NCBI RefSeq assembly: GCF_024662215.1
Contig: NZ_CP096115.1
Coordinates: 310,001 to 374,000, forward strand
DNA: 64,000 nucleotides
DNA from: Methanoplanus endosymbiosus
GTDB lineage: Archaea; Halobacteriota; Methanomicrobia; Methanomicrobiales; Methanomicrobiaceae
Direction of reading: 5' to 3'
Shown here: piece by piece, positions 3,754 through 9,267 of the stretch
Layout of the letters: each line of letters opens with the position of its first letter
How positions within the stretch are numbered: position 1 is the first letter of the stretch
The notes under the pieces: model-generated
What the model saw: only the letters and a program-made list of their open reading frames with translations
Database searches by the model: none
What the model was told of the DNA's origin: nothing
Program-made: the position numbers and the translations under genes

Positions 3754-4662
3754 TTATTTATCTGAAAGTGGAAAGAATTTCCTGTACACATCCCTTCTCT
3801 CATCAACATCAGTATGCAGATATACTTCGGTTGTTTTTATAGATGAATGCCCCAGATTTTCCTGTACAACCCTCAGATTTTTTGATCTTCTGTACAGTTC
3901 ACTCGCATAACTGTGCCTGATCTTATGTGGAGTTATTCCCTTTGGAGCATATCTGTTGAAGATGTACTGCACTGTTCTTGGAGAGATGTGCTTTCCCATC
4001 TGCCCGACAAATACCGGCCCGGAGATCTTTTTGGATGTGAAACTGTCAATCTGTTTAAGGGTTTCGTCATCGACAAAAACAGTGCGTATTTTGCCCCCTT
4101 TCCCTTTAACTTTTATTGTATGGTCCTCAAAATCAATGTCATCAATATCTATGGAACATAGTTCAGATACGCGGACTCCGGTAGAATATATTGTTCTGAT
4201 GATCAGTCTGTCCCTTTCACCCGGAATTGCATCAAGAAGCCTGATTACCTGATTATGCTTTAAATATTTCAGTTCCTGCTCCTTTATTTTGGGCCTGTCA
4301 ACTCCGATCATGGGGTTTGCCTCAATAATTCCCTGTTTAAAGCAGTACCTGTAAAATGAGCTTAAGGAGGAAATTATTCTGTGAAGTGTGGCTGGTTTGT
4401 ACTCTCTTAGTGACATCATGTATGCCAGAAAATCATTTATCATAATTGAAGTTGTATCAACGTCAGTATCCAGCCTGGCTTTTTTTGTGTCATTCCAGTA
4501 CACCGGAAGTTTCTCTTCTCCCTCATTTCTCATTATCCAGAGATAGTATCCAAACTTTTTGACAGAACCTTCATAGCTCTTTATTGTTCTCTGTGAGTAA
4601 TTCCGCATCCTGAGGTGGTGCAAAAAGCGTTTTAACCACTCTGAAAAATAATCTCCCTGCAT
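3754..4662 (-). CDS. xerA: Tyrosine recombinase, XerA/XerC-D-like integrase
   Basis: 302-residue site-specific recombinase that cuts and rejoins DNA through a phosphotyrosine. Residues ~1-110 are an N-terminal SAM-like core-binding domain (RNYSQRTIKSYEGSVKKF). Residues ~130-300 are the catalytic domain with the full set of active-site residues: Arg164 (TGVRVSE), Lys188 in the KGKGGKIR hairpin, His246 and Arg249 (HKIRH), His272 (GHSS) and Tyr281 (TEVYLH). Length and layout match archaeal chromosome-dimer XerA rather than larger phage integrases, but the setting between inverted repeats and next to a direct-repeat array is also what an element-borne recombinase would show. No other mobile-element genes are adjacent. 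Recombinase identity is secure; the XerA role is inferred. Confidence 0.9.
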   Translation of the reverse strand: MQGDYFSEWLKRFLHHLRMRNYSQRTIKSYEGSVKKFGYYLWIMRNEGEEKLPVYWNDTKKARLDTDVDTTSIMINDFLAYMMSLREYKPATLHRIISSLSSFYRYCFKQGIIEANPMIGVDRPKIKEQELKYLKHNQVIRLLDAIPGERDRLIIRTIYSTGVRVSELCSIDIDDIDFEDHTIKVKGKGGKIRTVFVDDETLKQIDSFTSKKISGPVFVGQMGKHISPRTVQYIFNRYAPKGITPHKIRHSYASELYRRSKNLRVVQENLGHSSIKTTEVYLHTDVDERRDVYRKFFPLSDK

Positions 4663-5235: not shown

Positions 5236-6120
5236 GAGTAACAATTAGTAACATCGATATTTTTTCAGTCAAAATAATATTTATCTGCAAATTTCAGAAG
5301 ATATTTCACCCCAATACTGCTGTAACCATCATATAATCAGCCACGGGTTGCCCCACTACCTGCTTCCTTATCTGTCTATTCTGAATGTTAATTGTCGGAT
5401 CTGGGGATTATATAGACATAAAATATGCAGCAATGATCCGGCAGACGGACGCAGTTACATTATGTTACTAGAATATTTAATTCGTCAAAATAGTGTGTAT
5501 CTGTAAATTTCAGGGCATATCTAACCCCAATACTCACCCCAATACTGTTGTAGCCATGCAGATGAGCAATCGCAGATAGATTGAACCCCGACCTGATTTT
5601 CCTGATCTGTCAATTCTGAATGCTAATTGTCAGATCAGAGGTTTTTATGGTCATAAAATATGCAGCAATAATCCGGCAGACAAACAGAGTTACATTATGT
5701 AACTCAGATATTAATTTCATCAGAATAGTGCATATCTGTAAATTACAGGGCATATCTAACTCCAATACTCAATCAAATAATGTTGTAATCATGTAGATGA
5801 TCAATCACAGATAGATTGCCATTTTCCAGCCCCCCAATCTCTCAATCCGGAATGTCAATTGTCAGATCTGGGGTTTTTATCGACATAAAATATGCAGCAA
5901 TAATCTGGCAGATAAATTAGGTTACATTATGTAACCAAGACATTTACTTCGTCAAAATAGGCGTATCTGCAAATATCAAGGCATATCCCACTCCAATACT
6001 CGCCGTAATAATCAACTCAATTACTGCGGTGTAAAATAGATTTTTGAACAAGTGTCAAACTTGAGATAGATTGCTATTCTGCTGCCTATTGGTATGTCAA
6101 TCCGAATGTTTGTCAGATCA
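5236..6120 (+). repeat. Array of four diverged ~216-235 bp direct repeats
   Basis: An aligned anchor, GTCAAAATA or close variants, recurs at 5268, 5484, 5719 and 5951, giving steps of 216, 235 and 232 bp. Each unit has the same ordered blocks: a near-palindrome GTTACATTATGTAAC (5454, 5689, 5921; degenerate near 5237), ATCTGTAAATTTCAGGGCATAT-like sequence, CCAATACTC, CAGATAGATTG, an AATTGTCAGATC block, and CATAAAATATGCAGCAATAATCC. Units are roughly 70-85% alike by eye and contain no open frame. The pattern is not a CRISPR, because the whole unit is conserved. Function is unknown; iteron-like protein binding, a repeated small RNA or centromere-like DNA are options. Confidence 0.85.
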
Positions 6121-6424
6121 GTTATGATTTTTCAGAAATTGCTGTCCGGCCGGCAGGTTCCATCTTAACAACGCCGTAAGATTCATATTTCCGGAAAGAT
6201 ATTTGAGTCTGCATCTGCCACCTCCCAAATCAGAATCTGAAAAAAAATCAGAATTCAGAATTCCGGCATATCAGGCAGATGGTTTGCACCACGAAATTAT
6301 GTCAGTATCAAACTGCGGGCCAGTATTTGTAAGATTGTACATATCCTCCCTTTTTCCGGAATTATGCTGAATATTCAATGGATTTTTACATCTGAACGAA
6401 CAGCCCTCCCTCCACCCACACCCC

Positions 6425-6445: not shown

Positions 6446-6621
6446 GACAGATGTTCGGCTGGGAAATCAGATCTCAGGACACCAGATTTAAAGAAATGTC
6501 ACATAATCTGCACTCTTCAAAATCCTGATAGCAAAATACGGTTTATCAGCCTCCTTTGACCTCACAAAATATGTCATTCTCAAAACACTCATTAGCCTAT
6601 AATAAAGATCTTTATGGTAGG

Positions 6622-9267
6622 ATGAGTAAGGGCCCAACACCTGCGATGAAGCAGTTTTACGACTTAAAAGACAAATATCCCGGAACAATCCTCTTTTTCC
6701 AGATGGGGGACTTCTATGAGACATTTGGAGAGGATGCTGAGGTTGTTGCCAGTGAGCTGGACATAACCCTGACATCCCGCGGCAGAGATATAAACGGTGA
6801 AAAGATGGCTCTTGCCGGAGTTCCGATCCATGCAGGAGAGACATACATCTCAAGGATGGTACAGAAGGGTTACCGTGTTGCTGTCTGTGACCAGATTGAA
6901 GATCCAAAAAAGGCAAAGGGCATAGTAAAAAGAGATGTTGTAAGAGTCATCACACCCGGAACTGTAATCGACTCATCAATGATTGGAACTTCGGGATCAT
7001 GCTACCTGATGTCACTTGACTACAACTCCAAAAAAAATGAATTTGGCATGGCATTTCTTGATGTCTCAACCGGAGAATTTTTTATATCAGAATGCAGGGA
7101 GAGCAATGGCTATACATCACTTAATTCTGAGATTGTGCGTTATAGCCCGTCTGAATGTATAGTCTCCCAAAAAGTTCCGGAATCAGCAATAAAAGAGCTT
7201 GAAAATAAAAATATTCTCATAACTCCGTACAACACAAGGGCATTTGATTATGAAACTGCCAGGGATTTCCTTCAGGATTACTTCAGTGTATCATCACTTG
7301 AAGGATTTGGCTGCATGGGCATGGATCTTGCCATCGGATCTGCCGGAGCATGCCTTTCATACGCCTGCTATACCCAGAAAAAAGACCTTGGACATATAAG
7401 AAAACTGTCTGTCAGAATTCCGGAGAACAGCATGGTTCTCGATGCAATCACGCTTAGAAATCTCGAAATTCTGGAGAACATAAGAAACCGTGGGAAGGAC
7501 ACATCCCTCTTTGGCGTATTAAATGATACAAAAACCTCAATGGGAATAAGAATCCTGAAGAAATTCCTGACAGCCCCGCTGATAAACAAAGAAGATATCG
7601 GGAAGAGACATGACGCAGTTGAATACTTCCTGAACAACTCCGCCACAAGATATAAACTGCGGGGACATTTACACAAATTCCCGGACATTGAAAGAATTGC
7701 CGGAAGGATCTCATACGGCAATGCAGGCCCGCGTGATCTCGTCACACTCAAAAATGCACTGCTTAAAATTCCGGAGATAAAATATCTTATAAATCCGGCA
7801 TCCGAAAGACTTCCAGCACTAATACGGGAGTCTGTTTCCGGTGCAGAGGCACTCACTGACGTAACAGAACTCATTGAATCTGCAATTAATGATGAACCGC
7901 CTGTCCTTGCAAGAACAGGAGGCGTAATCCGGGATGGTTACAGCAGTGAACTTGATGAACTCAGGGATATTGCATATTCAGGCAAAAACTGGATTGCAGA
8001 ATTTCAGCAGGGTGAAAGGGAGAGAACCGGAATCAAATCCTTAAAGGTAGGATTTAATAAAGTATCCGGATACTATATCGAAGTCACAAAGTCGAATCTC
8101 AGCCTTGTCCCACCCGAATACCTGAGAAAACAGACAATGTCAAACGGTGAGAGATATACCCTTCCGGTTTTGCAGGAGAAGGAATCTCTCATATCAAATG
8201 CAGAGGAGAAACTGCTTGCACTTGAACTTGAATTATTCAACAGCTTAATCTTATCACTTGCAGAAGTTGTCCCGGCAATACAGAAGACATCCGGACATAT
8301 CGGTCTTCTGGATGTATATGCAGCATTTAGCAATGTATCAGATCTATACAACTATAAACGTCCGGTGATTGAAAATTCCGGCAGGCTCATCATATCAGAC
8401 GGCCGCCACCCTGTTGTTGAGAGAAACATGGATAACAGTTTTGTGCCGAATGATTCCGGACTTGAAAGTGAGAGCGAACAGATCTTAATCATCACCGGAG
8501 CAAACATGGCAGGAAAATCCACCTACATGCGCCAGGTTGCCCTGATAACAGTAATGGCACAGGCAGGATGCTTTGTCCCCGCAGCCAGTGCTGTGATAGG
8601 AATTGTGGACCGGATATTTACCCGCGTTGGTGCATTTGATGATCTCTCAAGCGGCCAGAGTACATTTATGGTTGAGATGCTTGAACTCGCCAATATTCTT
8701 AATAACATCACCGACAAAAGTCTTGTAATTCTTGATGAGATCGGCAGGGGGACAAGCACACTTGACGGCTACTCCATTGCAAAGGCAGTGCTTGAATTCC
8801 TTCACGGCAGATCAAAGAGCGGACCGAGGACACTATTTGCAACGCATTTCCATGAGATGGTCGGGATGGAAGGTGAACTTAAGAGAGTGAGCAATTATCA
8901 TTTCGCTGTAAACGAGACCGGAAGGGATGTAGTATTCCTCAGAAAACTTATTCCGGGTGCGACAGACAGGAGCTATGGTATCCATGTTGCAAAGCTTGCC
9001 GGAATCCCAAAGAAAGTGCTTGACAGGTCATCTGAAATCCTGAAATTGGAACAGGAGAGAGAATACTCAGTTCCCGGAAGAATACAGCCGAGATACACCC
9101 AGATGCTGCTTATAGATCAGGGAGATTGTGCATCTGTTCATGATTGTGGGAATGGTGGAAAACTTGCAGAGAGGATAAGGGAGATAGATACTGATTCACT
9201 CACTCCAAGGGAAGCACTTGCACTGATATATACTCTAAAAGAAGAAGCCGGAGATGAGATGAATTGA
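6622..9267 (+). CDS. mutS: DNA mismatch repair ATPase MutS
   Basis: Bacterial-type MutS1 of 881 residues from this start. It recognises mispairs and small loops and recruits MutL. The mismatch-wedging motif GDFYETF sits near residue 31. The lever and clamp regions follow. The ATPase has Walker A (GANMAGKST, ~8494-8526), Walker B with signature (LDEIGRGTSTLDG, ~8722-8760), and the FATHFHEM histidine. The ATG at 6622 gives the family-typical N-terminus MSKGPTPAMKQ; an ATG at 6571 and a TTG at 6556 are in frame and cannot be excluded, as none has a good ribosome binding site. A CTATAATAAA element at ~6596-6605 may be the TATA box. The stop codon overlaps the mutL start. Confidence 0.95.
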   Translation: MSKGPTPAMKQFYDLKDKYPGTILFFQMGDFYETFGEDAEVVASELDITLTSRGRDINGEKMALAGVPIHAGETYISRMVQKGYRVAVCDQIEDPKKAKGIVKRDVVRVITPGTVIDSSMIGTSGSCYLMSLDYNSKKNEFGMAFLDVSTGEFFISECRESNGYTSLNSEIVRYSPSECIVSQKVPESAIKELENKNILITPYNTRAFDYETARDFLQDYFSVSSLEGFGCMGMDLAIGSAGACLSYACYTQKKDLGHIRKLSVRIPENSMVLDAITLRNLEILENIRNRGKDTSLFGVLNDTKTSMGIRILKKFLTAPLINKEDIGKRHDAVEYFLNNSATRYKLRGHLHKFPDIERIAGRISYGNAGPRDLVTLKNALLKIPEIKYLINPASERLPALIRESVSGAEALTDVTELIESAINDEPPVLARTGGVIRDGYSSELDELRDIAYSGKNWIAEFQQGERERTGIKSLKVGFNKVSGYYIEVTKSNLSLVPPEYLRKQTMSNGERYTLPVLQEKESLISNAEEKLLALELELFNSLILSLAEVVPAIQKTSGHIGLLDVYAAFSNVSDLYNYKRPVIENSGRLIISDGRHPVVERNMDNSFVPNDSGLESESEQILIITGANMAGKSTYMRQVALITVMAQAGCFVPAASAVIGIVDRIFTRVGAFDDLSSGQSTFMVEMLELANILNNITDKSLVILDEIGRGTSTLDGYSIAKAVLEFLHGRSKSGPRTLFATHFHEMVGMEGELKRVSNYHFAVNETGRDVVFLRKLIPGATDRSYGIHVAKLAGIPKKVLDRSSEILKLEQEREYSVPGRIQPRYTQMLLIDQGDCASVHDCGNGGKLAERIREIDTDSLTPREALALIYTLKEEAGDEMN

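Follow-up and report, generated by a model that had tools for sequence, protein, structure and literature searches.

The window, a stretch of 64,000 nucleotides from Methanoplanus endosymbiosus (G000:C1:310001-374000 of a 3.16 Mb genome), contains a noncoding gap of 1.9 kb between xerA on the minus strand and mutS on the plus strand, and this gap accommodates an array of tandem repeats (Table 1). The recombinase beside the array is the chromosomal XerA and not the integrase of a mobile element. A preliminary description of this DNA had reported four direct repeats of about 216-235 bp, and these are real; their coordinates and spacing were recovered, with direct repeats at 5237-5318, 5453-5534 and 5688-5769, whose starts are 216 and 235 bp apart, and with a block present in four copies that start at 5279, 5495, 5730 and 5961. 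Units 2 and 3 are 84% identical over 220 nt. The fragment that breaks unit 4 is a 43-bp piece (GGTGTAAAATAGATTTTTGAACAAGTGTCAAACTTGAGATAG) of a dispersed repeat, which is found elsewhere in the source genome (G000:C1:1509392 and 2219830) and in that of the congener (G001:C1:2322494 and 2862511); its longer copies look like a small mobile element.

Table 1. Features of the xerA-mutS region (positions refer to the window)
Feature	Positions	Strand	Remarks
xerA, archaeal XerA tyrosine recombinase	3754..4662	-	NCBIfam NF040815, 270 bits versus a cut-off of 220
Single-copy dif-like inverted repeat, TTTCGTAGAAT-ACCT-ATTCTGCGCAA	4697..4722	.	just upstream of xerA
Tandem unit 1	5237..5452	.	most diverged unit
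Candidate binding site 1, GTAACAATTAGTAAC	5238..5252	+	exact GTWAC-N5-GTWAC match, GTWACA polarity
Tandem unit 2	5453..5687	.	
Candidate binding site 2, GTTACATTATGTTAC	5454..5468	+	matches GTWAC-N5-GTWAC
Tandem unit 3	5688..5919	.	
Candidate binding site 3, GTTACATTATGTAAC	5689..5703	+	matches GTWAC-N5-GTWAC
Tandem unit 4	5920..6121	.	disrupted at 6028-6070 by a fragment of a dispersed repeat
Candidate binding site 4, GTTACATTATGTAAC	5921..5935	+	matches GTWAC-N5-GTWAC
mutS, divergent from xerA	6556..9267	+	far side of the array; NCBIfam NF003810 and TIGR01070 over cut-off

In the window array, each unit carries an intact copy of a 15-bp site, GTWAC-N5-GTWAC, in which two boxes lie one helical turn (10 bp) apart, with GTWACA first. 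It had been described before as a palindrome of each unit with a degenerate copy near 5237; the site is indeed present in all four units, but the copy near 5237 is a full member of the consensus. While the GTWAC box itself is symmetric, the site as a whole is polar: the first box is followed by A in all 21 xerA sites, read away from xerA, and in 34 of 34 exact sites upstream of the small-protein gene that is treated below, while the symmetric counterpart of this A is not fixed. Eight of the xerA sites are asymmetric at the position after the box, all eight in the same direction. Exact copies of GTTACATTATGTAAC occur twice in the source genome, both inside the xerA-side array.

The array has a syntenic counterpart between xerA and mutS in the congener (genome G001), where five units of 215 bp are 94-99% alike, and this synteny excludes a chance origin. 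The two arrays are about 64% identical to each other. Identity between the two species amounts to 87.5% in the two 5-bp boxes versus 59% in the array outside the site, and the flanking intergenic DNA mostly shows 68-82% in stretches of 60 bp, with somewhat lower values on the mutS side; the conserved element is thus the site and not the unit. The preliminary description had taken the ordered blocks of the units as a sign of selection, which did not hold, since these blocks are no better kept than their surroundings in the comparison with the congener. The units of 215-235 bp, weakly constrained in sequence, appear to have carried the site along as it was multiplied in the window genus.

Four copies of the site are present in the window array, five (four of them exact) in that of the congener, and two to three upstream of xerA in each of five Methanogenium genomes (genus g6). 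The 12 sites of these five genomes lie at -218 to -725, have a spacer of exactly five, and are spaced differently from those of the window genus. A sixth Methanogenium genome (G043) contains one exact site about 220 bp upstream of xerA together with a one-mismatch site recognized by eye, and the seventh, which is fragmentary (G041), has none upstream of xerA. The site is absent upstream of xerA in all other genera examined, including 78 further loci of named records, and a position-weight scan of the xerA upstream regions is bimodal, with scores of at least 16.5 only in the window genus and Methanogenium. In the remaining genera, a crude scan of the DNA upstream of xerA for further repeated palindromes revealed nothing clear. 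Homology of the unit flanks between the window genus and Methanogenium is weak, and the two genera are not sisters in the XerA tree, which is a single-gene tree; on that topology, either several losses of the array or two gains have to be assumed. In Methanogenium (L054-L058), there is also a conserved noncoding block of about 50 bp (GGCCAGGAAATGGCCACATA...TTGCCACTT) about 0.8-1.0 kb upstream of xerA, beyond the array.

When spacers of 0-15 were scanned upstream of xerA in a set of 28 loci, a spacer of five gave nine sites and all others together gave one. Counted over whole genomes, the motif is similar in number to a control pattern, the reversed motif (16 versus 16 in the source genome), so that its clustering and not its abundance is the special feature; the assembly of genome G023 contains only two copies of the motif, both upstream of xerA. 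For a DNA-binding site, the preliminary description had expected a palindrome confined to the array. The site is confined neither to the array nor to the genome; it is, rather, concentrated at two kinds of loci—the upstream region of xerA and the gene of a small protein. A second cluster of the 15-bp site exists in the window genus (L044:2995-3355, L143:2734 and L048:2394-2636), where the sites, which are real, lie in noncoding DNA in the neighbourhood of transposase genes and of a gene for a family 2 glycosyltransferase, within 62-bp repeats 299 bp apart; in the congener, 228 bp separate the sites.

The small-protein gene was found by following the site. In genome G003, three tandem copies of the site 32 bp apart, one of them mismatched, directly precede an open reading frame (ORF) of 60 amino acids, of which orthologues are present in L040, L041, L046 and L047, loci that had been fetched earlier for the site. 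These five cases are consequently not independent, but about 20 other site-bearing loci are. The gene is present in 37 of the 60 genomes searched. In the 9 kb flanking 30 small-protein genes, 42 exact sites were counted versus three in 800 kb of random sequence (window genus). Exact sites are located within 150 bp of the gene at 20 of the 30 loci, and 26 have a site up- or downstream when one-mismatch and N6 forms are included. The sites come in twos and threes, 30-34 bp apart (28 of 30 spacings are 31 or 32 bp, i.e., three helical turns), and the last one typically abuts the start codon. Four loci of genus g12, which is probably of the Methanoculleus type, have tandem triple boxes with a spacer of six at the small gene. 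Two genomes of the window genus contain a single one-mismatch site, GTAGCATTATGTAAC, at this gene, the same string as in one unit of the congener's xerA array. In the source genome, the protein comprises 63 amino acids (G000:C1:3015510-3015698) and its gene abuts that of a metallophosphoesterase. Such a gene immediately follows the small gene at 19 of the 30 loci, and in Methanogenium a pair of sites lies between the two. Across L187-L216, the small protein and the PdeM-like metallophosphoesterase form a conserved two-gene pair in one family of Methanomicrobiales.

Tandem sites at a gene of this kind are what comparative genomics typically shows for a DNA-binding protein that regulates its own gene, and their co-location with the small gene suggests that its product binds them. 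This association between gene and site is independent of any hypothesis on the fold of the protein. Across the order, the small protein has 59-67 amino acids; it has no Pfam match, and its match to ParD antitoxins is below threshold. The AlphaFold model (mean pLDDT 70) consists of an unstructured N-terminal arm followed by three helices, and the N-terminal pattern SKVVRxxxDA resembles, by eye, that of ribbon-helix-helix proteins. A fold search with the small protein returned no match, there was no profile match to the CopG and Arc sequences used, and NCBIfam gave no confirmation. Judged from this pattern and the order of the helices, the protein would be of the ribbon-helix-helix kind; the model is compatible with such a protein to which a third helix is added, as in E73 (PMC5569661).

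Protein binding, one of several options in the preliminary description, is strongly supported at the sequence level by a conserved site, a fixed 5-bp spacing, a shared polarity and the recurrence of the site at a gene that putatively encodes a DNA-binding protein. The array is probably a tandemly amplified set of sites for a small DNA-binding protein, with the 60-63 amino acid ribbon-helix-helix-like protein as the most likely candidate, which is supported by the occurrence of the same site, under the same polarity rule, at xerA and at the small gene. The protein would bind the sites beside xerA and those at its own gene, cooperatively and with one dimer per box, and would repress its own gene. 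In the xerA-mutS region, the bound sites, 118-255 bp apart, may exert a distant effect through looping or compaction of the DNA, either on transcription or on the accessibility of the dif-like site nearby. The sites do not readily suggest a direct repression of xerA, because they are at least 540 bp away from it in the window genus and all of them point away from the gene; in the five Methanogenium genomes, the nearest site is at 218-234 bp. Looping at a distance, or control of a transcript leading away from xerA, fits better than simple occlusion of a promoter. What counts against this explanation is that no site is detectable at the small gene of G023, although the xerA array persists there, that the small gene is present but siteless in the genus g8 genomes G022, G040 and G042, and that the window-genus gene has just the single one-mismatch site. 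The small gene and the xerA region could also both be governed by a different protein.

Such a protein could be a dimeric regulator, for example of the Lrp/AsnC type. The 15-bp sites of this type are likewise built as 5+5+5 and occur in regularly spaced groups: Ss-LrpB recognizes the palindrome TTGCAAAATTTGCAA, of which three sites are juxtaposed (PMC4046817), and Lrp sites are spaced by two or three helical turns (PMC2995911), which matches the operator spacing of 31-32 bp at the small gene. Exactly two Lrp-type genes were found in each of the eight genomes searched; in these eight genomes, co-occurrence does not discriminate for Lrp as the binder. Every genus searched has Lrp genes, with or without the array, and nothing ties these genes to the sites, whereas the link of the small gene to the sites is direct and order-wide. 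Furthermore, the sites are polar direct repeats and not clean palindromes. Overall, a different regulator as the binder, of the Lrp type or another, is rather unlikely. In six or more of the eight genomes, one of the two Lrp/AsnC-type genes has an orc1/cdc6 gene about 1 kb away (G000:C1:1807603, G001:C1:1356424 and equivalents). That each unit is a small-RNA gene or a structured RNA, as had also been proposed, would accord with a long noncoding region and a TATA-like block in every unit, but 13 of the 19 distinct sites have a mismatch at the central pair of the hairpin, whose pairing is no better than that of shuffled sequences, the consensus folds of the approximately 215-nt units are near zero (-1.8 and -5.2 kcal/mol), Rfam scans gave no match at threshold (snoR24, with an E-value of 0.12, stayed below the gathering score), and the unit sequence apart from the site is more diverged than the flanks; an RNA is therefore very improbable. 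Similarly improbable is a decaying local duplication without function. Free divergence of the units outside the site (59% identity between the species), the near-identity of the congener's units, typical of unequal exchange, and the disruption of one window unit by a dispersed repeat are what such decay would produce, but it is largely refuted by the conserved sites, which are intact in all window units and recur in two to three copies, at other spacings, in a second, non-sister genus.

The remaining alternative is about the effect of binding and agrees with the small protein as the binder: as accessory sequences, the sites could assist XerA in recombination at the dif-like site, or they could anchor this chromosome region in the manner of a centromere, instead of serving transcriptional control. 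The dif-like repeat is single-copy in nine of the ten genomes searched and always just upstream of xerA; in the form TTGCGCAGAAT-N4-ATTCTGCGCAA, it precedes xerA at a nearly constant distance of about 35-60 bp across Methanomicrobiales (L060-L139) at 66 of 79 loci versus 2.4% of shuffles. It represents a candidate archaeal dif beside the recombinase gene and possibly also serves as an autoregulatory operator. Since it adjoins xerA near the array, an effect of the array on Xer recombination is possible. An accessory or anchoring role is further favoured by the location of the sites on the same side of xerA in both genera, with one polarity, and by the precedent of SegB, an archaeal ribbon-helix-helix protein with palindromic binding sites in front of its own operon and at other places, which bridges sites separated by about 1 kb (PMC12284271). 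On the other hand, the usual neighbour of the small protein is the metallophosphoesterase, and a partner of the ParA type was not seen there; the distance of the locus to orc1 is not fixed (47% of the genome in G000, 12% in G001), and in most genera the dif-like site occurs without an array. Overall, this role is unlikely. The broader idea that the directional array and the small protein make up a chromosome-organising element, which folds or marks the xerA/dif region and times dimer resolution by XerA in FtsK-less archaea, is a speculative one with a small chance of being correct. Iterons of a replication origin are not supported by the gene context: the orc1/cdc6 genes of the source genome are about 1.4-1.5 Mb away and no initiator gene was seen between xerA and mutS. 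A SegAB partition locus was rejected as well, with no ParA-type partner seen and a motif that differs from TCTAGASTCTAGA. The position of the terminus was not readable from the GC skew of the sampled stretches.

Several known systems resemble the arrangement described here in part. Like the archaeal ribbon-helix-helix regulators SvtR, AvtR and F55 (PMC5569661), it combines a small protein with several adjacent sites at its own promoter and with further sites elsewhere, and F55 also shares tandem direct-repeat boxes. It differs in that the protein, whose fold is putative, is cellular, order-wide and paired with a metallophosphoesterase in one family, and in the additional array at xerA with its widely spaced sites. 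With SegB of the SegAB system (PMC12284271), it shares a small, here putative, DNA-binding protein and a short symmetric site just before the start codon that occurs again further upstream and at distal positions; the SegB motif TCTAGASTCTAGA, however, is unlike GTWACA-N4-GTWAC, no ParA-like SegA partner was seen next to the gene, and the sites are clustered at two or three loci and not scattered. The Ss-LrpB operator (PMC4046817) is similar in its 15-bp site with 5-bp half sites and an A/T spacer, in three tandem copies at its own gene, but its sequence is different, and the small protein of 60 amino acids is far shorter than the 15-kDa Lrp monomer. Both XerS/dif and archaeal XerA/dif (PMC2958812) likewise comprise a single tyrosine recombinase and one dif-like inverted repeat; as here, gene and dif are adjacent for XerS, whereas the dif of Thermococcales is not beside xerA. 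A counterpart of the site array was not seen in the sections consulted for these systems.

With this, a concrete candidate regulator and an exact recognition site, both predicted by sequence comparison, are proposed for an order of methanogens, and a previously unexplained repeat becomes a testable DNA-protein pair. If the array does act on Xer recombination, this would bear on the control of dimer resolution in archaea that lack FtsK.
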